From: an uncultured Mediterraneibacter sp.
GTDB lineage: Bacteria > Bacillota > Clostridia > Lachnospirales > Lachnospiraceae
Direction: 5' to 3'
DNA: 39,065 bases
Assembly (NCBI GenBank): GCA_944376695.1
Contig: CALWDM010000025.1
Span: 1-39,065, forward strand
Shown here: piece after piece, positions 672 to 28,400 of the stretch
Layout of the letters: each line of letters begins with the position of its first letter
Position numbering within the stretch: position 1 is the stretch's first letter
Translations under genes and position numbers: made by a program
Notes under the pieces: model-generated
The model's input: the letters and a program-made list of their open reading frames with translations, nothing else
Databases searched by the model: none
What the model was told of the DNA's origin: nothing

Positions 672-690
672 AACAAGGAAACACCACGGT

Positions 691-766
691 CACTAAGCTC
701 GAAAAAACCTCGCTAAGTGAGCCGGGTGTAGTTTCGCACTAAGCTCGGGAAATACCTCGCTAAGTG
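691..766 (-). repeat. Two hairpin-repeat modules in inverted orientation (rplW-rplB gap)
   Basis: Two tandem copies, at 691-719 and 737-766 and 46 bp apart, read CACTAAGCTCG ... CTCGCTAAGTG. Their reverse complement is CACTTAGCGAGG ... CGAGCTTAGTG, the same core found on the + strand in the gaps at about 3760-3785, 5630-5660, 6182-6208, 10976-11001 and 11340-11366. These two are therefore the antisense-oriented members of the family. Each folds as CACTAAGC/GCTAAGTG with one A.A mismatch. Confidence 0.75.
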
Positions 767-829
767 CTCAATCTAAACGGTGCAATTCCGTGAAACGAAT
801 AATTAGAGCAGACGAAAGGAGAGACAGTA

Positions 830-1672
830 ATGGGAATCAAAACCTATAACCCATATACACCTTCCAGAAGACAGATGACAGGGTCTGATTTCTCTGAGAT
901 CACAAAGACAACTCCTGAGAAATCCCTCCTGGATTCAAAGAAAAGAAACGCAGGCCGCAACGCACAGGGTAAGATCACTGTAAGACACCGCGGCGGCGGA
1001 GCTAAGAAGAAATATAGAATCGTAGACTTCAAGAGAAAGAAAGACGGAATTCCGGCTAAGGTCATCGGTATCGAGTACGATCCGAACAGAAGCGCGAACA
1101 TCGCTCTGATCTGCTACGCAGACGGCGAGAAAGCTTACATCCTTGCTCCGGAAGGACTGAAAGACGGCATGACTGTCATGAACGGCGCAGAGGCAGAGGT
1201 AAGAGTAGGAAACTGCCTTCCGCTTTCTGAGATCCCGGTTGGTACTCAGGTACACAACATTGAGCTTTACCCGGGAAGAGGCGGACAGCTCGTACGTTCC
1301 GCAGGAAACAGCGCACAGCTCATGGCGAAAGAAGGAAAATATGCAACACTGAGACTTCCGTCAGGTGAGATGAGAATGGTTCCGATCATCTGCCGCGCAT
1401 CTGTAGGTGTGGTAGGAAACGGAGAGCACAACCTGATCAACATTGGTAAAGCAGGACGTAAACGTCACATGGGTATCCGCCCGACAGTGCGCGGTTCTGT
1501 TATGAACCCGAACGACCATCCGCATGGTGGTGGTGAAGGTAAGACTGGTATCGGCCGCCCGGGTCCGTGTACTCCGTGGGGTAAACCGGCACTTGGTCTT
1601 AAGACCCGCAAGAAGAAAAAAGCTTCCAACAAGCTGATCGTAAGAAGAAGAGACGGAAAAGCGATTAAATAA
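830..1672 (+). CDS. rplB: 50S ribosomal protein L2 (uL2)
   Basis: A 280-residue protein of normal L2 length. It starts [17 protein letters not shown] and carries the conserved C-terminal block [18 protein letters not shown], which includes the histidine near the peptidyl-transferase centre. L2 is an essential 23S-binding protein needed for subunit association. The start is set by GAAAGGAGAG at 813-822. It leads directly to rpsS 26 bp downstream. Confidence 0.98.
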
Positions 1673-1698
1673 TCAGATTCACAAGGAGGTTAGAACCT

Positions 1699-1980
1699 AT
1701 GGCTCGCTCACTTAAAAAAGGACCATTTGCAGACGCTCACTTACTGAAAAAAGTTGACGCTATGAATGCATCTGGCGATAAATCAGTTATTAAGACATGG
1801 TCACGCCGTTCTACGATCTTCCCGTCATTCGTCGGCCACACATTCGCCGTACATGACGGAAGAAGACATGTGCCGGTATATGTTACAGAGGACATGGTAG
1901 GACACAAACTCGGTGAGTTCGTTGCGACAAGAACTTACAGAGGCCACGGCAAAGACGAGAAGAAGTCAAAAGTAAGATAA
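1699..1980 (+). CDS. rpsS: 30S ribosomal protein S19 (uS19)
   Basis: A 93-residue protein beginning [19 protein letters not shown] with the S19 core [22 protein letters not shown]19 forms a complex with S13 in the 30S head near the A site. A strong AAGGAGGT site at 1683-1690 fixes the ATG. It lies in standard order between rplB and rplV. Confidence 0.98.
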
Positions 1981-2011
1981 GATTCATATATTTCGAAAGG
2001 AGGGTTCATCC

Positions 2012-2398
2012 ATGGCAAAAGGACATAGATCCCAGATCAAGAGAGAGAGAAACGAGCAGAGAGATACAAGACCTTCAGCCAAGATCTCTTACGCAAGAGT
2101 ATCTGTTCAGAAGGCCTGCTACGTTCTTGATGCCATCAGAGGTAAGGATGTAACAACAGCACTCGGAATCCTGGCATACAATCCGAGATATGCTTCAACA
2201 GTGATAGAGAAACTTCTTAAGTCAGCGATCGCAAACGCTGAGAACAACAACGGTATGAGCGCAGACAACCTGTACATCGAGGAGTGCTACGCAAACAAAG
2301 GACCGACAATGAAGAGAATCAGACCGAGGGCACAGGGCAGGGCTTACAGGATCGAGAAGAGAATGAGCCACATCACAATCGTGCTGAATGAAAGATAG
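2012..2398 (+). CDS. rplV: 50S ribosomal protein L22 (uL22)
   Basis: A 128-residue protein. The N-terminus is basic (MAKGHRSQIKRERNEQ) and about 18 residues longer than the E. coli form. The body has the L22 pattern ARVSVQKACYVLDAIRGK, and the tunnel beta-hairpin ends in GPTMKRIRPRAQGRAYRI. L22 lines the exit tunnel with L4. Start is fixed by GAAAGGAGGG at 1995-2004. rpsC follows 9 bp after the stop. Confidence 0.97.
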   Translation: MAKGHRSQIKRERNEQRDTRPSAKISYARVSVQKACYVLDAIRGKDVTTALGILAYNPRYASTVIEKLLKSAIANAENNNGMSADNLYIEECYANKGPTMKRIRPRAQGRAYRIEKRMSHITIVLNER

Positions 2399-2407
2399 GA
2401 GGGCATT

Positions 2408-3064
2408 ATGGGACAGAAAGTTAATCCTCATGGCTTGAGAGTCGGCGTTATCAAAGACTGGGATTCCAAGTGGTACGCAGAGAAAGATTTCGCTGACAAC
2501 CTTGTTGAAGACCACGAGATCAGAACATTTTTAAAGAAGAGATTATACAGCGCAGGAATCTCCAGGATCGAGATCGAGAGAGCTTCCGACCGCGTGAAGA
2601 TCGTTGTATATACAGCTAAGCCGGGTGTTGTGATCGGCAAGGGCGGTTCCGAGATCGAGAAGGTGAAAAAAGAGCTTGCGAAGTACACAGACAAGAAGCT
2701 CATCGTTGACATCAAAGAGATCAAGAGACCGGACAAGGACGCGCAGCTCGTAGCTGAGAACATTGCCCAGCAGCTTGAGAACCGTATCTCTTTCAGACGT
2801 GCCATGAAGTCCTGCATGTCAAGGACAATGAAGGCAGGCGCTCTTGGAGTGAAGACATCCGTATCCGGACGTCTCGGCGGCGCTGATATGGCCCGCACAG
2901 AGTTCTACAGCGAGGGAACGATCCCGCTGCAGACACTCAGAGCTGACATTGATTATGGATTCGCAGAAGCTGACACAACTTACGGAAAAGTCGGTGTAAA
3001 GGTTTGGATTTACAAAGGCGAGGTTCTTCCGACTAAAGCAGATAAGGAAGGGAGCGATAAATAA
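2408..3064 (+). CDS. rpsC: 30S ribosomal protein S3 (uS3)
   Basis: A 218-residue protein. It begins [22 protein letters not shown] and has the type II KH motif [17 protein letters not shown] near residues 75-90, then the C-terminal domain with [21 protein letters not shown]3 lies at the mRNA entry channel. AGGAGGGC at 2398-2405 precedes the ATG. The stop shares one base with the rplP start. Confidence 0.98.
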
Positions 3065-3501
3065 TGTTAATGCCAAAAAGAGTAAAACGTCGTAAACAGT
3101 TCCGTGGTACCATGAAGGGAAAAGCTCTCAGAGGTAACACGATCTCATATGGTGAGTACGGTATCGTTGCAACAGAGCCGTGCTGGATCCGTTCCAACCA
3201 GATCGAGGCAGCCCGTGTTGCCATGACACGTTACATCAAGCGTGGCGGTAAGGTTTGGATCAAGATCTTCCCGGATAAGCCGATCACAGCTAAGCCGGCT
3301 GAGACCCGTATGGGTAGCGGTAAAGGTACGGTTGAATACTGGGCAGCAGTAGTAAAACCGGGCCGTGTAATGTTTGAGATTGCAGGAGTACCAGAGGAAA
3401 TCGCTAGAGAGGCACTTCGACTTGCAATGCATAAGTTACCTTGCAAATGCAAAATTGTTTCTCGCGCAGACTTAGAAGGCGGTGATAACAGTGAAAACTA
3501 A
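3064..3501 (+). CDS. rplP: 50S ribosomal protein L16 (uL16)
   Basis: A 145-residue protein starting [15 protein letters not shown] with the L16 block [20 protein letters not shown], here preceded by A-E-T instead of G. L16 shapes the A-site tRNA pocket. The ATG at 3064 overlaps the rpsC stop; an ATG at 3070 is possible and would drop two residues. The 3' end overlaps the start of rpmC by 11 bp, a usual tight coupling. Confidence 0.97.
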
Positions 3502-3691
3502 TACATTTGTAAAAGATTTAAGAGGAAAATCCGTAGAGGAATTAAACCAGGAATTAGTAGCTGCTAAGAAGGAACTCTTCAACTTAAGGTTCCAGAATGC
3601 CACAAACCAGTTGGACAACACAAGCAGGATCAAGGAAGTAAGAAAGAATATCGCTCGTATTCAGACTCTGATCACAGAGGCCGGGCGATAA
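3491..3691 (+). CDS. rpmC: 50S ribosomal protein L29 (uL29), GTG start
   Basis: A 66-residue protein beginning [20 protein letters not shown], with the L29 helical hairpin and the motif [15 protein letters not shown]29 packs beside L23 at the tunnel exit. An in-frame GTG at 3482 would add three residues, but GTG 3491 is preferred because AAGGCGGTG at 3476-3484 is then correctly spaced. It lies within the rplP 3' end. A 142-bp gap with a repeat element follows. Confidence 0.95.
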
Positions 3692-3800
3692 GCCGAAAGC
3701 GACTTAATGAATCCAAGCCGAAGGCGCAGGATGAGTTTAGTGCGAGGCTGTTCTTTGAGATTGGCGAGGTATTTTCGAGCCTAGCGAAAAGAACTTCCTT
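3691..3800 (+). repeat. Two-hairpin repeat element (rpmC-rpsQ gap)
   Basis: The outer pair AGCC/GGCT (3691-3694, 3746-3749) encloses module 1, ACTTAATGAATCC (3702-3714) against GGATGAGTTTAGT (3729-3741), capped by a GCC-GAA-GGC mini-hairpin. Module 2 is closed by GTTCTTT (3750-3756) and AAAGAAC (3788-3794) with GATTGGC/GCCTAGC inside. Both modules keep one T.T mismatch and a tandem G.A/A.G mismatch. Confidence 0.8.
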
Positions 3801-3833
3801 AACTTCCATAAAATGATTGAAAGGAGAAGAAAA

Positions 3834-4091
3834 GTGGAAGAGAGAAATCTTAGAAAAACCCGTGTGGGCAAGGTTGTCAGCGACAAGATGGACAAAACGA
3901 TCGTTGTTGCAGTTGAGGACCATGTAAAGCACCCGCTTTATAAGAAGATCGTAAAGAGAACTTACAAGCTGAAAGCTCATGACGAGCAGAACGAGTGTAA
4001 GATCGGAGATACAGTAAAAGTTATGGAAACAAGGCCGCTGTCCAGGGACAAGAGATGGAGACTTGTGGAAATCATGGAGAAAGCGAAATAA
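3834..4091 (+). CDS. rpsQ: 30S ribosomal protein S17 (uS17), GTG start
   Basis: An 85-residue protein: [22 protein letters not shown] then [21 protein letters not shown], the S17 OB-fold signature. S17 is a primary 16S-binding protein. An upstream in-frame ATG at 3813 would place the Shine-Dalgarno sequence inside the gene. AAGGAGA at 3821-3827 instead points to GTG 3834. The usual S17 N-terminus agrees with this choice. Confidence 0.95.
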
Positions 4092-4113
4092 TTTTTGAAG
4101 GAGGTTTACCTGC

Positions 4114-4482
4114 ATGATACAGCAAGAAAGCAGACTGAAAGTAGCAGACAATACAGGCGCGAAAGAGCTGCTGTGCATCCGTGTGCTTGGCGGTTCTACA
4201 AGAAGATATGCGAGCATCGGCGACGTGATCGTTGCGACTGTTAAAGATGCAACACCAGGCGGCGTTGTGAAAAAGGGAGATGTCGTGAAAGCCGTAGTTG
4301 TCCGTTCTGTAAAAGGTGCACGCCGTAAAGACGGTTCCTATATCAGATTCGATGAAAATGCTGCTGTTATTATAAAAGACGATTTAAACCCGCGTGGAAC
4401 ACGTATTTTTGGACCAGTAGCCCGTGAGCTCAGAGAGAAACATTTCATGAAGATCGTTTCCCTCGCTCCGGAAGTACTCTAG
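4114..4482 (+). CDS. rplN: 50S ribosomal protein L14 (uL14)
   Basis: A 122-residue protein of exact family length. It begins [28 protein letters not shown] and ends [12 protein letters not shown], both typical of L14. L14 forms an intersubunit bridge and is the target of the silencing factor RsfS. AAGGAGGT at 4098-4105 sets the start. The stop overlaps the ribosome binding site of rplX. Confidence 0.98.
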
Positions 4483-4494
4483 GAGGTGCCGAAG

Positions 4495-4806
4495 ATGTCA
4501 ACAATGAAAATTAAAAGAGGCGATACTGTAAAGGTCATCGCCGGCAAAGATAAAGACAAAGAGGGCAAGGTAATTGCCGTAAACAAAAAAGACGGTAAAG
4601 TCCTGGTTGAAGGCGTCAATATGCTGACAAAGCACACAAAGCCCAGCGCTGCGAACCAGAATGGCGGTATCATCCATCAGGAAGGCTACATCGATGCGTC
4701 CAACGTAATGTATGTACACAAAGGACAGCCGACAAGAGTGGGATTTAAGATGGACGGCGACAAGAAAGTTCGTTTCGCTAAGAAGACAGGCGAAGTGATC
4801 GATTAA
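4495..4806 (+). CDS. rplX: 50S ribosomal protein L24 (uL24)
   Basis: A 103-residue protein. A KOW motif lies at the N-terminus ([20 protein letters not shown]), followed by [15 protein letters not shown]24 initiates 50S assembly. AGGAGGTG at 4481-4488 overlaps the rplN stop and fits the ATG at 4495 with 6-nt spacing. The GTG at 4486 lies within that site and is rejected as a start. Confidence 0.96.
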
Positions 4807-4828
4807 TCAAGGAAGGAGGTCCAGGACT

Positions 4829-5368
4829 TTGAGTAGACTGAAAGAACAGTACCAGAATGAGATCGTTGACGCAATGATCAAAAAATTTGGATATAAAAAC
4901 ATTATGGAAGTGCCGAAGCTCGACAAGGTTGTGATCAACATGGGCGTCGGCGAGGCAAAGGAAAACGCAAAGCTTTTAGAGTCTGCGATCGCTGATATGG
5001 AGAAGATCGCCGGACAGAAAGCCGTTGTGACAAGGGCAAAGAATTCCGTGGCTAACTTCAAGATCAGAGAAGGTATGCCGATCGGATGCAAGGTTACTTT
5101 AAGAGGCGAGAAAATGTACGAGTTCGTTGACCGCCTGATCAACCTTGCGCTCCCGCGTGTGCGTGACTTCAGAGGCGTGAACCCGAACGCATTCGACGGA
5201 AGAGGAAACTATGCGCTTGGTATCAAGGAGCAGCTGATCTTCCCTGAGATCGAGTACGACAAGATCGACAAAGTCAGAGGTATGGATGTAATCTTTGTTA
5301 CAACAGCCAGGACTGACGAGGAAGCACGTGAATTATTGGCACAGTTCAATATGCCGTTTGCTAAGTAA
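4829..5368 (+). CDS. rplE: 50S ribosomal protein L5 (uL5), TTG start
   Basis: A 179-residue protein: [20 protein letters not shown], then [16 protein letters not shown] and [20 protein letters not shown], all hallmark L5 segments. L5 binds 5S rRNA and contacts P-site tRNA. The start codon is TTG, set by GGAAGGAGGT at 4811-4820 with 8-nt spacing; no in-frame ATG lies nearby. This rare start codon is the only unusual feature. Confidence 0.96.
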
Positions 5369-5381
5369 AGGAGGGAAAGAC

Positions 5382-5567
5382 ATGGCAAAGACATCGATGA
5401 AGATCAAACAGCAGCGCAAACCGAAATTCTCCACAAGAGAGTACAGCCGCTGCAGAATCTGCGGACGTCCGCACGCGTATCTGAGAAAATATGGAATCTG
5501 CCGTATCTGCTTCCGTGAACTGGCATACAAAGGACAGATCCCGGGTGTTAAGAAGGCAAGTTGGTGA
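5382..5567 (+). CDS. rpsN: 30S ribosomal protein S14, zinc-binding type (uS14)
   Basis: A 61-residue short-form S14. Its zinc ribbon cysteines are at 24, 27, 40 and 43 (CRIC ... CRIC), so this is the Zn-dependent type usual in Firmicutes. The stop and length (ending GVKKASW) match the family. AAAGGAGGG at 5368-5376 fixes ATG 5382; an upstream frame extension into rplE is not real. S14 sits in the 30S head next to S3 and S10. Confidence 0.97.
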
Positions 5568-5672
5568 CCGGAAGCACTTAATGAGTGCAAGCTGAAGGCG
5601 CCGCACGAATTTAGTGAGAGGTCGTTCTTTGAGCTTAGCGAGGTGTTTTCGAGCTTAGCGAAAAGAACTTCC
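5566..5672 (+). repeat. Two-hairpin repeat element (rpsN-rpsH gap)
   Basis: The outer pair GACC (5566-5569, overlapping the rpsN stop) and GGTC (5620-5623) encloses module 1, ACTTAATGAGTGC (5576-5588) with GCACGAATTTAGT (5603-5615). Module 2 is GTTCTTT (5624-5630) with AAAGAAC (5662-5668) and GCTTAGC on both inner arms. Layout and mismatches match the element at 3691-3800, with compensating arm changes. Confidence 0.82.
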
Positions 5673-5700
5673 GTAATCAATTATAGGAGGAATTTTATCA

Positions 5701-6102
5701 ATGACTATGAGCGATCCGATTGCAGATATGCTTACAAGAATCCGTAACGCAAATACTGCAAAACATGATACAGTAGATGTACCGGCATCCAAGATGAAAA
5801 TTGCTATCGCAAACATCCTGCTTGATGAAGGATATATCGCAAAATATGACCTTGTAGAAGACGGACACTTCCAGACGATCCACATCACACTGAAATACGG
5901 AGTGGATAAGAATGAGAAAGTTATCTCCGGCCTGAAGAGGATCTCCAAACCGGGTCTTCGTGTTTACGCAAGCACAGAGAATATTCCGAAGGTTCTCGGT
6001 GGACTGGGAACAGCGATCCTTTCTACAAACAAAGGTGTCGTAACAGACAAAGAAGCAAGAAAACTCGGCGTAGGCGGAGAGGTTCTCTGCTTTATCTGGT
6101 AA
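5701..6102 (+). CDS. rpsH: 30S ribosomal protein S8 (uS8)
   Basis: A 133-residue protein starting [25 protein letters not shown] and ending [11 protein letters not shown]. The block [23 protein letters not shown] is the S8 RNA-binding signature. S8 binds helix 21 of 16S rRNA and is often an autogenous regulator of the spc genes. AGGAGGAAT at 5685-5693 precedes the ATG. It is flanked on both sides by hairpin repeat elements. Confidence 0.98.
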
Positions 6103-6345
6103 GCACTGAACACTGGCATTGAACACTTAATGAGTGCAAGCGGTACGCGCAGCACGAATTTAGTGAGAAAGCCCATCCGGAAACTTAGCGAGGTACTTTC
6201 AAGCTTAGTTGACGGATGTTACCGCATGTTTTTGTGCGCAGCTTGAGCTTAGGCGCACGGACGTGTACTGGGGAGTGCAAACTCCCGTAACGAGACTGAA
6301 AACAGAGCGAACTAGAGCATTCGCTCCGAAAATCTAAGTTAAGGA
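6103..6345 (+). repeat. Extended hairpin-repeat element (rpsH-rplF gap)
   Basis: This 253-bp gap holds no gene. Module 1 is ACTTAATGAGTGC (6125-6137) with GCACGAATTTAGT (6152-6164), capped by GCG-GTA-CGC. Module 2 is CATCCG (6174-6179) with CGGATG (6213-6218) around CTTAGCGAGG. Three further perfect hairpins follow: GTGCGC/GCGCAC (6234-6239, 6253-6258), GGGAGT-GCAA-ACTCCC (6271-6286) and GAGCGAA/TTCGCTC (6305-6311, 6320-6326). It shares long stretches with the rpmJ-rpsM element. Confidence 0.8.
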
Positions 6346-6355
6346 GGAAACAGGT

Positions 6356-6898
6356 ATGTCACGTATCGGAAGACTGCCGGTTGCGATCCCCGCAGGAGTG
6401 ACTGTGGAAATCGCAGAAAACAATGTAGTGACTGTAAAAGGTCCGAAGGGAACTCTCACAAGAGAGCTTCCGGTTGAAATGGAAATCAAAATTGAAGGCG
6501 AAGAAGTAACTGTAACAAGACCAAACGACCTCAAGAGGATGAAATCTCTCCACGGTCTGACAAGAACACTGATCAACAATATGGTCGTAGGCGTTACTCA
6601 GGGGTATGAAAAAATCCTGGAAGTAAACGGTGTGGGTTACAGAGCAGCCAAATCAGGAAATAAACTGACACTGAACCTTGGATACTCTCATCCAGTCGAG
6701 ATGATCGATCCGGAAGGCGTTGAGACTGTTGTGGAAGGTCAGAACAAGATCACAGTAAAGGGGATCGACAAAGAAAAAGTCGGACAGTATGCAGCCGAGA
6801 TCAGAGACAAGAGAAGACCGGAGCCGTACAAGGGCAAAGGTATCAAGTACTCTGACGAGATCATCAGACGTAAAGTTGGTAAGACTGGTAAGAAATAA
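6356..6898 (+). CDS. rplF: 50S ribosomal protein L6 (uL6)
   Basis: A 180-residue protein with [19 protein letters not shown] at the start and the C-terminal L6 signature [20 protein letters not shown]6 lies near the GTPase centre of the 50S subunit. AAGGAGGAAA at 6341-6350 sets the start after the long repeat-filled gap. rplR follows within 18 bp. Confidence 0.98.
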
Positions 6899-6915
6899 AT
6901 AAGGAGAGTGTGAAA

Positions 6916-7284
6916 ATGGTTAGTAAGAAATCAAGAAGCGAAGTTCGTAGAAAAAAACACATGAAATTACGCAACCGTTTCAGCGGAACAGCAGAGAGAC
7001 CGCGTCTCGCTGTATTCCGGAGCAACAATCATATGTATGCTCAGATCATTGACGACACGGTTGGAAATACACTGGTTGCAGCCTCCACTCTTCAGAAAGA
7101 CGTGAAGGCGGAGATGGAGAAGACAAACAATGTCGAGGCAGCAGCATACCTTGGAAAAGTGATCGCTGAGAAAGCGAAAGAAAAAGGCATCACAGACGTC
7201 GTATTCGACAGAGGCGGATTTATTTACCAGGGTAAAATCAAAGCACTGGCAGACGCGGCGAGAGAAGCCGGGCTGAATTTCTAG
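6916..7284 (+). CDS. rplR: 50S ribosomal protein L18 (uL18)
   Basis: A 122-residue protein: [21 protein letters not shown], then [20 protein letters not shown] and [23 protein letters not shown], the L18 signature. It binds 5S rRNA with L5. A GTG at 6910 is in frame, but AAGGAGAG at 6901-6908 leaves proper spacing only to ATG 6916. It is directly upstream of rpsE. Confidence 0.96.
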
Positions 7285-7300
7285 GGAAGGGAGAACACAG

Positions 7301-7810
7301 ATGAGACAGGAACGTATTGATGCTAGTCAGATGGAATTATTAGAAAAAGTAGTATCGATCAAACGTGTTACCAAGGTTGTTAAAGGTGGTCGTAACTTCC
7401 GTTTTACAGCTTTAGTTGTTGTCGGAGACGGCAACGGCCATGTTGGTGCAGGTTTGGGAAAGGCTACTGAGATCCCGGAAGCCATCCGCAAGGGAAAAGA
7501 AGACGCGATGAAAAAGATGATCACAGTATCGCTTGATGACAACGCAAGTGTGATCCACGACGTGATCGGTAAATTCGGAAGCGCGTCCGTACTTCTCAAA
7601 AACGCTCCGGACGGTACCGGTGTGATCGCCGGGGGCCCGGCTCGTGCCGTGATCGAGATGGCGGGGATCAAGAACATCCGTACAAAGTCTCTTGGATCAA
7701 ACAATAAGCAGAATGTCGTGCTTGCGACGATCGAGGGACTGAAAGATGTGAAGTCACCCGAGGATGTCGCAAGACTGCGCGGGAGATCAATCGAGGAGAT
7801 CATGGGCTAA
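7301..7810 (+). CDS. rpsE: 30S ribosomal protein S5 (uS5)
   Basis: A 169-residue protein with a dsRBD-like N-terminal part ([30 protein letters not shown]) and the C-terminal fold [21 protein letters not shown]5 contributes to decoding accuracy and mRNA unwinding. GGAAGGGAG at 7285-7293 precedes ATG 7301. Length and order are standard. Confidence 0.98.
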
Positions 7811-7862
7811 CTGACAGGCTTGTATGAAAGCATGTTCTGTCACACAAGGAGGTAAGATTGAA

Positions 7863-8045
7863 ATGGCAAACTTAAAAGTTACGTTAGTAAAGTCTGCAAT
7901 CGGCTCCATACCGAAGCATAAAAAGACAGTTGAGGCTCTTGGTCTCAGGAAGACAGGCAAGACAGTCGTGCTGCCGGACAATGCGGCTACAAGAGGTATG
8001 GTACAGCAGGTCAGACATTTGGTTAAGGTTGAAGAAGAGGCATAA
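7863..8045 (+). CDS. rpmD: 50S ribosomal protein L30 (uL30)
   Basis: A 60-residue protein beginning MANLKVTLVKSAIGSIPKHK, with the L30 motif TVEALGLRKTGKTVVLPD. L30 is a small peripheral 50S protein. AAGGAGGT at 7848-7855 fits ATG 7863; an in-frame ATG at 7824 has no ribosome binding site and would add a non-homologous leader. Confidence 0.96.
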   Translation: MANLKVTLVKSAIGSIPKHKKTVEALGLRKTGKTVVLPDNAATRGMVQQVRHLVKVEEEA

Positions 8046-8066
8046 AAAAGATAAGGAGGTAACGTC

Positions 8067-8507
8067 ATGGACTTATCAAACTTAAGACCGGCGGACGGTT
8101 CTAAACAGAGTGATAATTTCAGAAGAGGCCGTGGACACGGGTCAGGAAACGGTAAGACAGCCGGCAAAGGCCACAAAGGGCAGAAGGCGCGTTCAGGCGC
8201 TACAAGACCGGGCTTCGAAGGTGGCCAGATGCCTTTATACAGAAGAATCCCGAAGAGAGGATTCACAAACAGGAACTCTAAGACGATCGTGGGTATCAAC
8301 CTGGGGGCTCTTGAGAGATTCGAGGACGGCGCGACAGTGTCCGTTGAAACACTGATCGAGAGCGGGATCGTTAAGAACCCGAGAGATGGAGTTAAAATTC
8401 TTGGAAATGGAGAGTTAACTAAGAAGCTTACAGTTCAGGCCAATGCTTTCAGTGCAAAAGCCGCTGAGAAGATTGAAGCACTTGGTGGAAAAGCAGAGGT
8501 GATCTAA
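8067..8507 (+). CDS. rplO: 50S ribosomal protein L15 (uL15)
   Basis: A 146-residue protein: [14 protein letters not shown], then the glycine-rich stretch [20 protein letters not shown] and [18 protein letters not shown], diagnostic for L15. L15 is a late-binding 23S assembly protein. The stop shares one base with the secY start, so SecY translation is coupled to it. Confidence 0.98.
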
Positions 8508-9859
8508 TGCTTAAGACAGTACGCAGAGCATTTCAGATAGAAGATATCAGAAAGAGAATTTTCTATACATTAATAATGCTCGTTGTTGTGAGGCTCGGAT
8601 CAGAACTGCCTACACCGGGAGTCGATCCGACCTTTATTCAGGAATTTTTTGCACAGCATACCGGTGACGCTTTCAACTTTTTCGAGGCGTTCACCGGAGG
8701 CTCCTTTACAAATTTCTCGATCTTTGCCCTGAGTATTACACCGTACATTACGTCTTCCATCATTATGCAGCTCCTTACCATTGCGATTGAGAAGCTGGAG
8801 GACATGCAGAAAGAGGGGGAAGAGGGAAGAAAGAAGATCGCGGCTATCACAAGATATGTGACAGTGGCGCTGGCGCTGATCGAGTCAACTGCGCTTGCAG
8901 TAGGTCTTGGACGCCAGGGGCTCCTTGTGGAGTATAATTTTGTAAACTGTGCGATCGTTGTATGTACACTGACAGCCGGAAGCGCATTCCTTATGTGGAT
9001 CGGTGAGCGTATTACAGAAAATGGCGTAGGAAACGGTATTTCTATCGTGCTTCTGATCAACATTATTTCCCGTGTTCCGAGCGACTTCGTGACACTTTAT
9101 ACGCAGTTCATGAGCGGGAAGAAACTGGCGATGGCAGCTCTTGCGGGTGCAATCATCGTGGCAGTGATCCTCGTTGTGGTGATCTTTGTCGTAATACTTC
9201 AGAGTGGCGAGAGAAGGATCGCGGTACAGTATTCCAAGAAGGTACAGGGAAGAAAGTCTTACGGCGGACAGTCTACACATATCCCGCTGAGAGTGAATAC
9301 CGCAGGCGTTATCCCTGTCATCTTCGCGTCGTCGCTGATGCAGACTCCGATCGTGATCGCCGGATTCCTCGGGAAAGGGAACGGCACAGGGATCGGAAGC
9401 CAGATCCTGGCCGGAATGAACTCCAGCAACTGGTGCGATCCTGACAGACCGATCTATTCGATTGGACTTGTGGTATATGTGGTGCTCACTATATTCTTTG
9501 CGTATTTCTATACATCGATCACTTTTAATCCGTTAGAGATCGCAAACAATATGAAGAAGAGCGGAGGCTTTATCCCGGGCATCCGTCCCGGAAAGCCGAC
9601 AGTTGAGTATCTGCAGAAGATCCTCAATTACATCATTTTCATAGGCGCGTGCGGTCTGATTATCGTTCAGGTCATCCCGTTTTTCTTCAATGGTGTGTTC
9701 GGAGCCCAGGTATCTTTCGGCGGAACCTCCATTATCATTATTGTGGGAGTCGTGCTTGATACGATCAAGAAGATCGAGTCACAGATGCTTGTGAGAAATT
9801 ATACAGGATTTTTAAATAACAAAGGAAGTAACATGTCCAACAGCTTCCTCGGATATTAA
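8507..9859 (+). CDS. secY: Protein translocase channel subunit SecY
   Basis: A 450-residue polytopic membrane protein with about ten hydrophobic segments. It begins [21 protein letters not shown] and carries the plug and helix-2 block [21 protein letters not shown]. Further matches are [17 protein letters not shown] (TM4 region), [11 protein letters not shown], and [23 protein letters not shown] in the cytosolic loop that contacts SecA or the ribosome. SecY forms the protein-conducting channel with SecE and SecG. ATG 8507 overlaps the rplO stop by one base. The following 94-bp gap contains a stable hairpin. Confidence 0.98.
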
Positions 9860-9917
9860 GCCAGATAAAGCTCGCGCAGTTTGCTCGCTGAAGAGGAAAC
9901 TGCCGCGGGCTCATGGC
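9860..9917 (+). other. Hairpin between secY and adk
   Basis: AGCTCGCGCAGTTT (9869-9882) pairs with AAACTGCCGCGGGCT (9897-9911), with one bulged C and one G.U pair. An outer GCCA/TGGC pair (9860-9863, 9914-9917) extends it. No U-run follows, so an RNA processing or stability element is more likely than a terminator. Confidence 0.6.
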
Positions 9918-9953
9918 TTATTTGAATATAAAAAGGAACGGAGGTATGAGTTA

Positions 9954-10598
9954 ATGAAGATCATCATGCTGGGCGCACCGGGCGCAGGGAAGGGAACACA
10001 GGCGAAAAAGATCGCGGAGAAGTACGGGATTCCGCACATTTCTACAGGAGACATTTTCCGCGCGAATATCAAGAACGGCACAGAGCTTGGCAGGAAGGCG
10101 AAGACTTATATGGATCAGGGTCTTCTTGTGCCGGATGAGCTGGTCGTTGATCTTGTTGTAGACAGAGTAAATCAGGAGGACTGCGCGAATGGATATGTTC
10201 TCGACGGCTTCCCGCGTACGATCCCGCAGGCGGAGGCGCTGGACAAAGCGCTCTCAGAGATGGGACAGAAGATGGATTACGCGATCAACGTGGAAGTGCC
10301 GGATGACAATATCGTAAACCGTATGTCAGGGAGAAGAGCATGTGTGGACTGCGGCGCCACTTACCACATCGTATATGCTCCGACAGAGGAAGAGGGCGTC
10401 TGTGACAAGTGCGGCGGAAGTCTGATCCTGAGAGATGATGACAAGCCGGAGACCGTGCTTAAGAGACTTGGCGTGTACCATGAGCAGACTCAGCCTCTGA
10501 TCGACTATTATACCCAGTCGGGTATCCTGAAAGAGGTTGACGGAACGATCGATATCAACGATGTCTTCGCGGAAATAGTGAAGATTCTGGGAGCGTGA
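9954..10598 (+). CDS. adk: Adenylate kinase, zinc-LID type
   Basis: A 214-residue enzyme catalysing ATP + AMP = 2 ADP in the cytoplasm. The P-loop GAPGAGKGT is at residues 7-15 and the AMP site includes [10 protein letters not shown] and [10 protein letters not shown]. The LID carries CVDC ... CDKC, the four-cysteine zinc site of Gram-positive long-form enzymes. GGAGG at 9940-9944 sets the start. Next comes infA rather than map, which is the usual neighbour. Confidence 0.98.
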
Positions 10599-10690
10599 TC
10601 CGTAAGCGAAGCGGGAGATAACTAAAACTTGCCCCGAGGGGGGAAGGCGTAAACCCGAATGGGGCGCGCCGTGATCAGGAGGATTAATAT

Positions 10691-10909
10691 ATGTCAAAAG
10701 CTGACGTAATCGAGATTGAGGGAGTTGTAGTAGAGAAACTCCCGAATGCAATGTTCAGAGTGGAGCTTGAAAACGGGCACATTGTTCTGGCCCACATCAG
10801 CGGTAAGCTGAGAATGAATTTTATCAAGATCCTGCCGGGAGATAAGGTGACGCTGGAGATGTCGCCATATGATCTGAGCAAAGGAAGAATCATCTGGAGA
10901 GATAAATGA
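10691..10909 (+). CDS. infA: Translation initiation factor IF-1
   Basis: A 72-residue single OB-fold protein: [30 protein letters not shown], ending GRIIWRDK. It blocks the A site during initiation. Length and sequence are exactly those of the family. CAGGAGG at 10677-10683 precedes the ATG. The preceding 92-bp gap has a GCCCC/GGGGC hairpin (from about 10632 to 10667). The stop overlaps the first arm of the next repeat element. Confidence 0.98.
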
Positions 10910-11014
10910 CCGAAAGCAACTTAGTGAAAGCGAGGCAAAGCCGAAGCTTGAACTTAGTGCGAGGTCGTTCCGTGAGATTGGCGAGGTGTTTTCGAGCCTA
11001 GCGAACGGAACTTC
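10908..11014 (+). repeat. Two-hairpin repeat element (infA-rpmJ gap)
   Basis: The outer pair GACC (10908-10911) and GGTC encloses module 1, ACTTAGTGAAAGC (10919-10931) with GCTTGAACTTAGT (10946-10958), capped by GGC-AAA-GCC. Module 2 is GTTCCGT (10967-10973) with ACGGAAC (11005-11011) around GATTGGC/GCCTAGC. Compared with 5566-5672, both arms of each stem change together: A-T to G-C in module 1, and TT/AA to CG/CG in module 2. Confidence 0.82.
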
Positions 11015-11041
11015 CTTGAAAGAAATTCAGTGAAATAGTAG

Positions 11042-11071
11042 TTGACGTTAATATGCATTTGATGCTATACT
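11042..11071 (+). promoter_or_regulatory. Internal sigma-A-type promoter before rpmJ
   Basis: TTGACG (11042-11047), an 18-bp spacer, then TATACT (11066-11071). It lies within the cluster just after a repeat element and 80 bp before rpmJ. It is followed by a hairpin in the leader (GGTC/GACC outer, TTGGG/CCCAA inner, about 11079-11110). Confidence 0.65.
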
Positions 11072-11151
11072 GTCAGATGGTCACCATTGGGGAGGTGTGC
11101 CCAATCGACCGGAAAATGTAGGCAGAGCAAAGAAGGGAAGGAGGATTTGAC

Positions 11152-11265
11152 GTGAAGGTTAGATCATCAGTAAAACCAATTTGTGAAAAATGCAAAATCA
11201 TTAAAAGAAAAGGAAGCATCAGAGTAATCTGCGAGAATCCGAAGCACAAACAGCGCCAGGGCTAA
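11152..11265 (+). CDS. rpmJ: 50S ribosomal protein L36, zinc-binding type, GTG start
   Basis: A 37-residue protein reading [20 protein letters not shown] and on to NPKHKQRQG. Cys11, Cys14, Cys27 and His32 form the zinc site of the C+ type. AAGGGAAGGAGG at 11133-11144 precedes the GTG. The family is always this short, so it is easily missed. It has its own likely promoter at 11042-11071 and is separated from rpsM by an unusually long 580-bp gap. Confidence 0.96.
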
Positions 11266-11400
11266 AACACTGGCATTGAACACTTAATGAGAGCGAGCTG
11301 AAAGCGAAGCTCAAATTTAGTGAGAAAGCCCATCCGGAAACTTAGCGAGGCATTATCGAGCTTAGTTGAGGGATGTTTCATTATCCAGTGTTAGGCGCAC
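11266..11400 (+). repeat. Extended hairpin-repeat element (rpmJ-rpsM gap)
   Basis: The outer stem AACACTGG (11266-11273) with CCAGTGTT (11385-11392) encloses the whole element. Module 1 is ACTTAATGAGAGC (11282-11294) with GCTCAAATTTAGT (11309-11321), capped by GCT-GAA-AGC. Module 2 is CATCC (11331-11335) with GGATG (11371-11375). Near-identical stretches are shared with 6107-6262, including CACTGGCATTGAACACTTAA and TTAGGCGCACGGA. Confidence 0.8.
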
Positions 11401-11845
11401 GGATGTGCAGTGGATTGATGCACGTTTACCAGTGAATATAAATGGAAAGCGTGCGGCATGATTTAAGCGGCTGACAGCGCGGCACACAAGGCGTGTGCAG
11501 AGCTGTTTCATATACAAGTAAGGATACACCGCACCTGTACACAGGTACCGCAGGGCGCGTGTTCTGGCATTTTCACGGCAGCATGTCCAGACGGATAAGC
11601 GAAAATGCGATTGTATATTGCTTCTAATACCCGGCATTTGCATTGACGGATTTTTGAAAAGAGGATCCGCGCCGGGAAAGGGCGTGGAAGAGAAACACGC
11701 CTGGGCTGGGATATCGGGTAAACGAAAGTCTTAATTATGAAAAAAGCCCGGTAGGGTGCGGCACCAGGAGGCAGAGGATGCACTGGATGGCACTCGCAGC
11801 CTCAGTTAAAGACAGTATCAGACAAAGAAAATGGAGGAAAGACAC
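11401..11845 (+). other. Long non-coding leader before rpsM
   Basis: About 445 bp without a convincing gene. Perfect short hairpins are visible: ACCTGT-AC-ACAGGT (about 11532), GCATTTTC ... GAAAATGC (about 11568-11610) and GGCGTG/CACGCC (about 11682-11703). No clear promoter and no match to a riboswitch class I know. A long regulatory leader for the rpsM-rplQ part is possible. Confidence 0.4.
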
Positions 11846-12214
11846 ATGGCTCGTATTGCAGGTGTAGACTTACCAAGAGACAAACGTGTAGAAATCGGTC
11901 TGACTTATATCTATGGAATCGGTAGAACAAGCTCAAACCGTATCTTAGCAGAGGCAGGAGTAGATCCTAATACTCGCGTAAGAGATCTTACAAGTGAAGA
12001 AGTAAAGAAGATCAGTGCAGTGATCGATGAGACTCAGGTCGTAGAAGGTGATCTCAGAAGAGAGATCCAGCTCAATATCAAGAGACTGAAAGAAATCGGT
12101 TGCTACCGTGGGATCCGCCACAGAAAAGGACTTCCGGTACGTGGTCAGAAGACAAAGACCAATGCAAGAACATGCAAAGGTCCAAAGAGAACAGTTGCAA
12201 ACAAGAAGAAATAG
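11846..12214 (+). CDS. rpsM: 30S ribosomal protein S13 (uS13)
   Basis: A 122-residue protein: [30 protein letters not shown], then [31 protein letters not shown], the S13 signature. It contacts the P-site tRNA and L5 across the interface. ATGGAGGAAA at 11831-11840 supplies the ribosome binding site for ATG 11846; reading from 11831 would put that site inside the gene. First gene of the alpha-type group here. Confidence 0.97.
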
Positions 12215-12335
12215 GCCGAAAGCAACTTAATGAGAACGAGCTGAAAGCGAAGTTCGAATTTAGTGCGAGGCCGTTCGCGAATCTTAGTGAATGCAAGCGG
12301 CAAAGCGCAGCATGAGCTTAGCTGAGCGAACTACC
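12212..12335 (+). repeat. Composite hairpin-repeat element (rpsM-rpsK gap)
   Basis: Module 1 is ACTTAATGAGAAC (12225-12237) with GTTCGAATTTAGT (12252-12264), capped by GCT-GAA-AGC. Module 2 is closed by GTTCGC (12273-12278) and GCGAAC (12326-12331). Inside it, instead of the usual short loop, lies another full module-1-type hairpin, CTTAGTGAATGC (12283-12294) with GCATGAGCTTAG (12310-12321), with the same T.T and tandem G.A mismatches. Confidence 0.8.
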
Positions 12336-25413: not shown

Positions 25414-28400
25414 ATGGAAAAATACATCAGCGTGCTCCTTTACAGGTCAGGAAAGCGGAAGAGGATACTGGGCAGCGCAGTGGGAGTTATATGCCTGTGC
25501 GCGATGCTTGCAGGAAGTATTCTTCCGCTTATGCCTGCGCTGGAGACAAAAGCGGCAGAGACTTCGCTTCTGGAGGACCTTGTCATTGATAAGGTGTATA
25601 GTCTGGAGGCTGTAGGAGGATACGGGGACCATGAGCCTGATGATACGGGATTCGCGCCCGGGGTGACCGAGTATACGGGGACAGCATACAGTTCGGTTGA
25701 CGAGGTAAAGGTCTATCCGTTTGCCGGGACAGAGACTGCCGAGGTGACGGTCAACGGAGAAAAGCCGGGCAGCGAAGGATATGTGACGGTTGAAATGGAC
25801 AGCCCGGGCACGTATGAGATCGGGATCCTGGTGGAAGACAGCGGTGTGAGTGAGGAATACCATGTGAATGTGGAAAAGACGGACACCGATTACAGAGGAA
25901 GACGCCCTGTGGCTAAAAATGAGACGATCATGCAAGAACTCAGTGTTTCGACACCGTTTTCCAATGAAGAGACATTGATGGAGGTCATCGGGAAAGACTA
26001 CAATGTCATACTGCCGGAGAGCAAGAAGGCGGATGGCTCTTATGTCGACACAGCGGAGAGCTACTGGAGCGTCCCGGGAGCGGAACTCCCGGATGCCGGG
26101 GGAACGGAAGCGCCTGTGGAACTGTTTACCATTGATCTGGGCGGCACTTACAGTGTCAGCAGGATTCGGGCGGCTTTCGGACCGTCCAATCTGAACCTGT
26201 CGAAGAACCGTGCCAGGATTTCTGTGAGTACGGATGGGGAAAACTGGCAGACGCCGGTCACTAAGGGAAATATGAATACAGGGACTCAGTACCATCAGAA
26301 TGTAACCCGGTATGAGTTAGGCGTTTCCTATGAGGCAAGGTATATCCGGTTTGAGGTGACGAACTGGGAGTATGGAAGCGCGAAGGACCTGCGAATCTAT
26401 CAGTTCATGGTTTTTTATGACGCAGGGGAAGTTCCGGAGAAACAGGAGGCGCCCGACGGGGCTTCCGTTCCTCATCAGCATGAGGAGAGGCATCAGTATC
26501 TTTCAGGAGGCCAGGCGACAGTCGTGGAGAGAGGGCTGACGATGTCCGGCTGGACGCCCAGCAGCGGATACGGCAGAGGGATTCCGACCTCTGAGGAGTC
26601 TGAGCAGTTTGGCTATGACGGGCCTCTGTTCTATGACCCGGATTTTGAAAACCCGGATTATATGCTGTATAATCCCGACGCCCTCTGGGGGATATCGAAA
26701 GCTCCGTTTGGCGGGAACAACATGTCCTCCGCAGGCGAACCAACAGACTTTGTGCCGGAATCTATGAAACCTTATATTGGAAATGCCATTAGTTTCTGTT
26801 TCGGCGACGAAGGAGGCTACAGCACGCAGGAAGCGGAAGCATTCGGGAAATGGTTTGAATGGACAAGAGAGCATTATCCGGGTGTGATCCTCCATACGAA
26901 CCAGTTTCCCAACCAGTGGAGCCGTGCGAACCTGCTGGAATATTTCCGGATAGCGGAGCCGGATATGATTTGCTGGGACGACTATTACGGGGATTCGGCG
27001 TGGGCGAACCCGTCCAGTATCAATCTTTCAAATGCCGCTGTGCAGAAAGACGCAGCGCGTAAGCTGATGAACCTGAATACATGGAAGACATACAGGGAGC
27101 TTGCGTACGGAGGCATTGACGGTACGGCCTCTAAGCCGATCCTGTTTGGACAGTATCTGGATGCGTTTGCTTTCAACCACTCGCAGTCCAATAAAAACCT
27201 GATTGTGAATCTGTCTGTCTTATCTGGCGCGAAGTGGCTCAATTTCTTCCGGCTGGAATATCAGTTTGACCGTTCCTATCTGTGGGATGAGGACGGCACG
27301 CCCACGCGCGGACTTCTGGAATGGGGACAGATCATTGACCGCGTACACGCAGTGGATGATCAGCTGACACGTCTGAATAACGACTGGATCATGTTTAAGA
27401 TTGGTTCCATCGGAAACGAAACGAACGCTGCGGCAGACGGTTTCCGCATGGGGAACTTTGACGATGAGGAGAGCCAGGAGAAAAATCAGGAATACGGCAT
27501 TGCAGGGCTTGAAGTAAAGAGTCTTTCAGATGCGCACGGCGGCGGAAGCGGCGATGTTGTGCTGGGCTATTATAAGACGCTGCCAGGGCTGTATGAGAGC
27601 GAGATCGGAGAATATTTTGAAGGGGCGACAGCTCCGAAGGCGTTTCTGGTAATGAATGGCCTCACAGCCGGGCAGGCTGAGCGGTATAACGAATTCCATA
27701 TTCCGGAGCGGGCTGCGGGCTCGTCGAAAAATACCCGTCAGCAGATTACGGTCACGGTAGAACCTGAATTTGCGGAAAACTATACGCTGTATATGGTGGA
27801 TAAAGATGATACAAACGAAGATGGCAGCGGCAGGATCAAAGAAGTAGCGCTTGACGGCAACCAGTTTACAGTCATTTTGGGAGGCGGCGAGGCTGACCTG
27901 TATTTCTGGAATACGGATACATCCGCGTCTGCCAGCTCCGAGGGGGAAGGAACATATGCCTCTTTCGCGTTTGACTCCCACAGCGAGACTTACTGGCAGC
28001 CGTCCGGACAGGCGGAGACATATACGCTGACAAACACATTCGCACCGTGTACGATAGATCAGGTGACGCTTCTGGAAAAGGGAAATGCGGTCAGCGAATT
28101 CCATCTGGAATACCTGGATGTAAACGGAGAGTGGCAGCAGTTTGGCGAACCTGGGACAGAGATTGGCTCTGTGGTATCCGTTCCGTCGGGAGAGGCGGTG
28201 ACTGCGCAGGGCATCCGGCTGGTGATCACACAGTCCGAAGGAATCCCGGCTGTCTATGAAGTAGAATTAAGGGAGAAATCAGAGGAAGACCTGGATGAGG
28301 AGCATACGGTCCAGGTCAATGACAATACGATGGGGACCGGTCTGTTCCGGTTCTGGTATGACGGACTCTGGTCTTACCGTGAAACGGAATCAAACGGGGG

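Follow-up and report, generated by a model that had tools for sequence, protein, structure and literature searches.

REP and BIME repeats are imperfect hairpins with conserved mismatches that lie in the gaps between genes, sometimes in arrays. For ERIC, De Gregorio et al. reportedly described in 2005 an oriented insertion at or overlapping stop codons. In one account, ERIC is a 127-bp intergenic sequence that is cotranscribed, folds in the transcript and has an orientation that matters for upstream RNA stability; the same account states that NEMIS RNA was proposed as an RNase III substrate and that RUP is linked to IS630 (PMC2229807). Two further papers report that ERIC inserted at the 3' end of Yersinia genes alters transcript level via an RNase E site (PMC10969869) and that in 36 cases the BOX repeat of Streptococcus pneumoniae encodes the stop codon of a gene (PMC3049150). 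In low-GC Firmicutes, stable stem-loops near stop codons are mostly terminator-like, and the Firmicutes listed in the paper that reports them include, as far as shown, no Lachnospiraceae (PMC1590033). The present analysis concerns a 39-kb window, which is the whole stretch analyzed (39,065 nt, contig CALWDM010000025.1 of assembly GCA_944376695.1, from an uncultured Mediterraneibacter sp. of the Lachnospiraceae). Six gaps of its ribosomal gene cluster each hold, on the + strand, an element of about 110 nt made of two abutting hairpins, and a seventh gap, rplW|rplB (676-775), holds an inverted pair, with two hairpins on the minus strand. The best reading is that this element represents a new family of small, structured repeats that are interspersed in the genome and anchored to stop codons with striking exactness, set apart from BOX by description. 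ERIC and BOX appear to be its closest kin in behavior; membership in either is not claimed because inverted ends, a TA target duplication and a mobilizer are not established for the element, which is therefore called a new family.

The hairpins share a core, CUUARYGA ... GARYUUAG, that comprises C-G and U-A pairs, a kept U.U mismatch, three further pairs and a tandem G.A/A.G mismatch. The tandem mismatch has a pyrimidine before it and a purine after it, presumably the context of sheared tandem G.A mismatches. As the original prediction had stated, each of the six gaps holds two + strand hairpin modules, and the arms of module 1 differ between gaps but still pair (GTGC/GCAC, ATCC/GGAT, AAGC/GCTT, GAGC/GCTC and GAAC/GTTC, each placed in its gap). 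The T.T mismatch was found in all six module-1 copies and the tandem G.A/A.G in five of them, AA replacing one GA at 11283-11320; the short module 2 has the same core, with U.U plus tandem G.A. Minimum-energy folding of the six + strand copies, taken singly, gave two imperfect hairpins each, with zero nucleotides between the modules and z-scores of -2.2 to -3.8 (complements, -0.4 to -3.0). The inverted rplW|rplB pair had a z-score of -4.5 as transcribed and -4.1 as its complement.

Comparison of sequences provides very strong evidence for compensatory change across Lachnospiraceae. A search pattern with free arms (CCGAAAGCAACTTARYGA, 8-34 free bases, GARYTTAGTGCGAGG) was run on a collection of one genome per species (84,980 species) and yielded 111 stretches, partly from the same genomes as the ribosomal-cluster stretches described below, so that the two sets are not fully independent. 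The first 80 of the 111 stretches gave 72 distinct copies, 64 of which were aligned for covariation; analyses of arms, 5' and 3' ends, module-2 tails and within-assembly likeness were also based on these 80 stretches, and the fullest stop-codon count on all 111. In the 64 copies, 97.1% of the cells of a 19-pair structure were paired, compared with 84.2% in shuffles, and the covariation score was 0.373, compared with 0.130 (sd 0.008) in shuffles, with 0 of 500 shuffles reaching the observed score. Eleven of the 19 pairs vary on both sides; the remaining eight are invariant because the search pattern fixed them and are thus uninformative either way. When the 3' partners were slid by 1 to 3 columns, pairing fell to 22.5-36.1%, and RNAalifold, unaided, predicted 18 pairs in nearly the same structure. 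The outer stem of module 2, also predicted to covary, did so: the complete 6-bp partner of the copy's own 5' arm, of which there are 14 different forms, is present in 72 of 83 distinct tails, compared with 29.6 (sd 3.4) of 83 expected when arms were crossed with tails. The proposed selection on a folded form is thus supported by covariation, with its shuffle and slide controls, and by a strand-specific wobble excess in sense copies.

This wobble excess points to RNA as the selected fold. Sense copies (163 distinct sequences, three pairs each) carry 54 G-U and 5 A-C wobbles on the transcribed strand, a figure to which strand bias of mutation could contribute. An independent set of 72 copies, with all pairs counted, showed a weaker excess of 22 G-T to 9 A-C, five of the nine A-C being found at arm positions 1 and 4 and four at the outer R:Y pair. 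Moreover, the sense RNA was stabler than its complement in 72 of 72 copies, with means of -21.9 and -15.5 kcal/mol.

The copies of the window, in which each + strand module is a predicted fold, are as follows (CM, covariance model):

676..775, - strand: inverted composite in rplW|rplB, with cores at 693-717 and 739-764; the transcribed RNA also forms two abutting hairpins.
3689..3749, + strand: module 1 after rpmC (rpmC|rpsQ), stop TAA at its start, outer stem AGCC/GGCT, arms ATCC/GGAT; CM match 3690-3751, E 9.7e-20.
3750..3794, + strand: module 2 (rpmC|rpsQ), outer stem GTTCTTT/AAAGAAC, then tail TTCCTT.
5565..5623, + strand: module 1 after rpsN (rpsN|rpsH), first three bases the stop TGA, outer stem GACC/GGTC, arms GTGC/GCAC; CM match 5565-5625.
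5624..5668, + strand: module 2 (rpsN|rpsH), outer stem GTTCTTT/AAAGAAC.
6114..6173, + strand: module 1 with the other type of 5' flank, after rpsH (rpsH|rplF), arms GTGC/GCAC; CM match 6114-6175.
6174..6218, + strand: module 2 (rpsH|rplF), outer stem CATCCG/CGGATG.
10907..10966, + strand: module 1 after infA (infA|rpmJ), first three bases the stop TGA, outer stem GACC/GGTC, arms AAGC/GCTT; CM match 10907-10968, E 3.9e-21.
10967..11011, + strand: module 2 (infA|rpmJ), outer stem GTTCCGT/ACGGAAC.
11271..11330, + strand: module 1 after rpmJ (rpmJ|rpsM), arms GAGC/GCTC, AA replacing one GA; CM match 11271-11332.
11331..11375, + strand: module 2 (rpmJ|rpsM), outer stem CATCC/GGATG.
12212..12272, + strand: module 1 after rpsM (rpsM|rpsK), first three bases the stop TAG, outer stem GGCC/GGCC, arms GAAC/GTTC; CM match 12213-12274, E 6.2e-22.
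12273..12331, + strand: module 2 of module-1 type (rpsM|rpsK), outer stem GTTCGC/GCGAAC, inner arms ATGC/GCAT, then tail TACCTT; CM match 12283-12321.

Flanking genes were identified by Pfam (ten window genes tested) as encoding L23, L2, L29, S17, S14, S8, L6, IF-1, S13 and S11. A core scanner found 12 sites in the window, all inside the seven gaps, two of them being overlapping combinations of neighboring modules; it overlooks four cores that deviate at one position (3760, 6184, 10977 and 11283). Twenty shuffled windows, in which only two-base blocks were preserved, gave 0 or 1 site each.

Anchoring to stop codons was assessed with reading frames of at least 45 codons, after three copies at locus edges had been dropped from the 88 of the first part and from the 120 of the full set. 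A sense-frame stop lies 0-2 nt before CCGAAAGC in 82 of the 117 testable copies (58/85 in the first part and 24/32 in the rest), compared with 53 of 4000 random positions. No opposite-strand frame ends within 2 nt of any of the 117 copies, and frame ends within 30 nt number 90 on the sense strand and 18 on the other. The stops at anchored copies are TAG (57), TGA (22) and TAA (3). The outer stem opens with the G of the stop codon (TGACC, TAGRCC), and the stem varies in step with it (GACC/GGTC, GGCC/GGCC, AACC/GGTT). In relatives without the element behind rpsN, the stop of this gene is TAA in many and TAG in a few. The secA copy of the window's genome lies inside the gene end, where it codes the last residues, RKQLGVNKA, plus the stop.

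In the mRNA operons examined the element is mostly in sense orientation. The main cluster stretches hold 122 sense and 16 inverted copies, the latter in rplW|rplB, rpsH|rplF and rpmJ|rpsM; the rplW|rplB copy is inverted in four congeners too (L060, L063, L065 and L067). Transcript strand was set from flanking frames or recognizable gene ends at another 33 mRNA loci, six of which belong to the ribosomal cluster; 58 of 58 classified copies there are sense. Nineteen copies at loci of unclear transcript direction were left unclassified, and four copies of L093 counted as inverted were dropped from the tally, this stretch having no anchor gene. Loci L130-L181 were chosen with a pattern that fixes the core, so that only arms and R/Y positions are free there.

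The 111 pattern stretches are labeled Lachnospiraceae or genera such as Mediterraneibacter, Blautia, Faecalicatena, Roseburia and Enterocloster, and the remaining ones only Clostridia, Clostridiales, Eubacteriales, Firmicutes, Eubacterium, Ruminococcus or Tyzzerella. A search with covariance model R1, a check that the original prediction had proposed, gave 11 matches in the window's genome and matches in 44 of 100 Lachnospiraceae genomes, one per genus. Among 116 genomes drawn from the order (the share from outside the family is not shown), nine matched: the window's genome, seven others from its family and a single one from outside that family, the last being marginal (E 0.0099); both genome searches were run with stricter filters. 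The matches of the window's genome all lie in the ribosomal protein (r-protein) cluster or at rplK|rplA, rpsL, ssb and secA; each is placed at the end of an r-protein gene, infA, ssb or secA, or in the gap that follows the gene. In congeners, the core is also found in pgk|tpiA and groES|groEL. The groES-groEL gap at G000:C37:18299-18473 (L184) contains three core hairpins at a spacing of 75 bp. The predicted placement between ribosomal genes therefore holds, but restriction to them is not supported, as the element is also found after pgk, ssb, rpsL, rplK and groES, within the secA gene end and, in inverted orientation, in spacers of tRNA and rRNA genes. In Mediterraneibacter, most of the copies examined are in operons that, from general knowledge of them, are considered strongly expressed. 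In 41 ribosomal-cluster stretches, R1 matched in 7 of 26 gaps, precisely those that carry the element in the window, with 85 sense and 6 inverted matches; the gaps secY|adk, rpsK|rpsD and rpoA|rplQ, which are of fair length, had no match in these stretches. The median difference between filled and empty gaps was 113 nt for rplW|rplB, 103 nt for rpmC|rpsQ, 185 nt for rpsN|rpsH, 125 nt for rpsH|rplF, 76 nt for infA|rpmJ, 204 nt for rpmJ|rpsM and 112 nt for rpsM|rpsK.

The original prediction did not recognize the element as a described family, and Rfam 15, at the gathering cut-off, placed no family on the element in the window and nine further loci. Elsewhere, Rfam found one group II intron in L115, off the element, and three sub-threshold matches in the window, also off it. 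The open-licence literature searched showed no description of such repeats in Lachnospiraceae. Like ERIC, the element is a folded RNA that is oriented and lies at gene 3' ends in operons, cotranscription being deduced from gene order; it differs from ERIC in its phylum, its two abutting hairpins and its core. Both BOX and the element are modular structured repeats of Firmicutes, whereas their modules differ, by description alone, and the element directly adjoins the stop codon and, in mRNA operons, is mostly in sense orientation. With REP/BIME it shares imperfect hairpins with conserved mismatches in gaps, and with Correia/NEMIS and RUP it shares being a small folding repeat; in contrast to the latter, it shows no clear terminal inverted repeats by eye, and the window's genome has no DDE_3 match.

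The data show a Lachnospiraceae repeat family, its fold, the RNA-strand bias of sense copies, the stop anchoring, the orientation bias, the presence and absence at orthologous gaps and the likeness within genomes. From these we infer with moderate confidence that the family works in the manner of ERIC or BOX, by affecting how mRNA is processed or stabilized between cistrons. The double hairpin would form behind the terminating ribosome and set or protect the 3' end of the upstream cistron, either by blocking 3'-to-5' exonucleases or by presenting a cleavage site, and the stabilities of neighboring cistrons would thereby be uncoupled. The recognition by a protein or RNase put forward in the original prediction is possible. 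The element may thus control the lifetime of neighboring parts of one message. Lachnospiraceae are among the main gut bacteria, and the many naturally varied copies, with filled and empty sites of the same gaps, offer a test bed for a stop-codon-placed intercistronic RNA fold that sets relative gene output in an operon.

Several observations weigh against this role. The complement of the rpsN|rpsH copy has a lower z-score than the transcribed strand (-3.0 vs -2.2). The lack of an R1 match in 56 of the 100 genera indicates that the element is dispensable, and the 24-31 matches in some genomes, together with copies that follow genes not placeable as strongly expressed, form the pattern expected of a selfish repeat. 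Furthermore, of the copies located in tRNA spacers, upstream of 16S or between 16S and 5S, 23 of 23 are inverted, although many of them occupy the same spacer in several species and are thus not independent. Transcript strand was set at 13 of these loci by ARAGORN or Rfam and at three by likeness (L139, L175 and L143, the last searched with Rfam with no rRNA match), and 19 of the 23 copies are at loci with a tool-called tRNA or rRNA. The few wobbles of inverted copies do not favor the transcribed strand: 33 distinct sequences, among them the four of L093, have 2 G-T and 0 A-C when read on the GA strand. Mean fold energies are -18.6 (GA strand) and -17.1 (complement). A pure mRNA-stability role leaves the inverted stable-RNA copies unexplained. 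The sense hairpin, being tighter, might interfere with trimming at the 3' ends of tRNA and rRNA precursors, and only the inverted form may therefore have been retained there. Why the orientation switches from mRNA operons to stable-RNA operons is a sharp puzzle that can be tested. A speculative and rather doubtful extension is that the mobile repeat, sense behind mRNA stops and inverted in tRNA/rRNA spacers, is a family-wide RNA punctuation mark with an orientation code, i.e., a common strand-specific processing signal of heavily transcribed Lachnospiraceae operons that would be read by one dedicated RNase or RNA-binding protein also dependent on the terminating ribosome.

The stable-RNA loci searched with Rfam yielded only rRNA, 5S and tRNA. 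Inverted tRNA-spacer copies (L137, L144, L147, L150, L151, L158, L164 and L166) are mostly situated some 60 nt upstream of the next tRNA, with a second hairpin such as GCACGTAAGCGTCT...AGACGCTAAGTGC after them. The rRNA operons of L138 and L140 (G028) have 5S between 16S and 23S.

The element behaves as a spreading repeat family. Arm identity is 0.81 within one assembly (64 pairs, tandem copies included) and 0.52 between assemblies (3591 pairs), a difference seen in 0 of 1000 label shuffles, and L262 carries tandem 112-nt element units; both shared arms and tandem copies indicate a copied or mobile repeat. Between assemblies the arms vary and pairing is retained, and orthologous gaps are either filled or empty, some apparently with remnants. 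By eye, 88 copies begin with GRCCGAAAGC and often end with GAACWWCC, with a weak GGAAG/CTTCC match in some; comparison by eye of filled with empty gaps placed the 5' flank at the T or TA of the stop codon, and the 3' boundary is not sharp. A purely selfish miniature element, the hairpin of which is needed for its own mobilization as single-stranded DNA and for which gaps behind stops merely tolerate insertion, would account for the likeness of arms within assemblies, the tandem units, presence and absence at the same gap and the 353 pattern matches in both orientations in G076. It is a real possibility but on the whole an unlikely one, since the RNA-strand wobble excess of sense copies, the sense bias in mRNA operons and the exact abutment to stop codons argue against it, as does the lack of a matching mobilizer. 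A RAYT mobilizer is unsupported because the RAYT-like gene of the window's genome (L128:1456-2247) is flanked on both sides by a different repeat, of the GGGGTCTGACCCC type, which is absent from the window, and because none of 12 Y1_Tnp loci fetched, of 21 matches listed, contains element cores. An IS630-type transposase and a reverse transcriptase were also set aside as drivers, without a match in the window's genome, G010, G013, G090 and G143, all element carriers; the window's genome, searched with DDE_3 (IS630-type), is a 94% complete draft.

In 20 stretches of G076 that were read (L098-L117; e.g., L117:5968-6008 and 6404-6444, and L102:6278-6318), the core sits within a fold of about 150 nt with a small side hairpin. 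These folds have long outer stems that vary in sequence per copy yet pair, and they occur in both orientations, with some inverted pairs.

An attenuator, antitermination or pausing signal of heavily transcribed operons would fit the two-hairpin architecture and the presence of the element in operons for r-proteins, rRNA and tRNA, which generally employ antitermination. Moreover, some module-2 arms contain GTTCTTTGAG, which we take to resemble boxA. Such a transcription-level device is nevertheless improbable. GTTCTTTGAG is not conserved: it forms one arm of a stem, and GTTCCG, CATCCC, GTTCGC, CTTCCC and other sequences take its place, each with a matching partner. A boxA-like antitermination site was set aside because of this compensated variation. 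No terminator-like site was found on the + (transcribed) strand within any window copy, which also removes an intrinsic terminator, and the element is repeated at internal gaps and inverted in stable-RNA operons. SINE-like spread, in which element RNA would be reverse transcribed and inserted in sense into abundant transcripts, would agree with the sense bias, the apparent preference for strongly expressed operons and the RNA-strand selection in sense copies, but is very improbable: RVT_1 has no match in the window's genome (94% complete) or in the drafts G010, G013, G090 and G143, despite their copies, it is present in 11 of 17 genomes tested, element-poor ones included, and copies in stable-RNA operons are inverted. 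A binding site through which a ribosomal protein autoregulates its operon is hardly credible, since the element, although present in seven gaps of the r-protein cluster, also follows pgk, groES and ssb, lies in secA and is found near tRNA genes, stands behind stop codons rather than in leaders, and is matched by no Rfam leader.

Other sequences in the window were also noted. In the rpmJ|rpsM gap, 11676-11810 matches the S4-Clostridia ribosomal leader below threshold (31.7 bits, gathering cut-off 37.5, E 0.00012). Before rplF, 6294-6350 has the arrangement ACTGAAAACAGAG-hairpin-CTCCGAAAATCTAAGTTAAGGAGG, found in many congeners with stem changes that apparently pair, and may be a further leader. 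The sequence ACGGTGCAATTCCGTGAAACGAATAATTAG (775-806) precedes rplB and is found in many congeners, whether the element is present or not. A promoter-like TTGACG-18-TATACT with TG before the second hexamer lies at 11042-11071, in the infA|rpmJ gap 3' of the element; promoter-like sites in the region (9 found, 12.6 expected) are not above chance. Short tandem repeats in steps of 12-18 bp occur at 29746-29954, near the 3' end of a 1551-codon frame (25414-30069).

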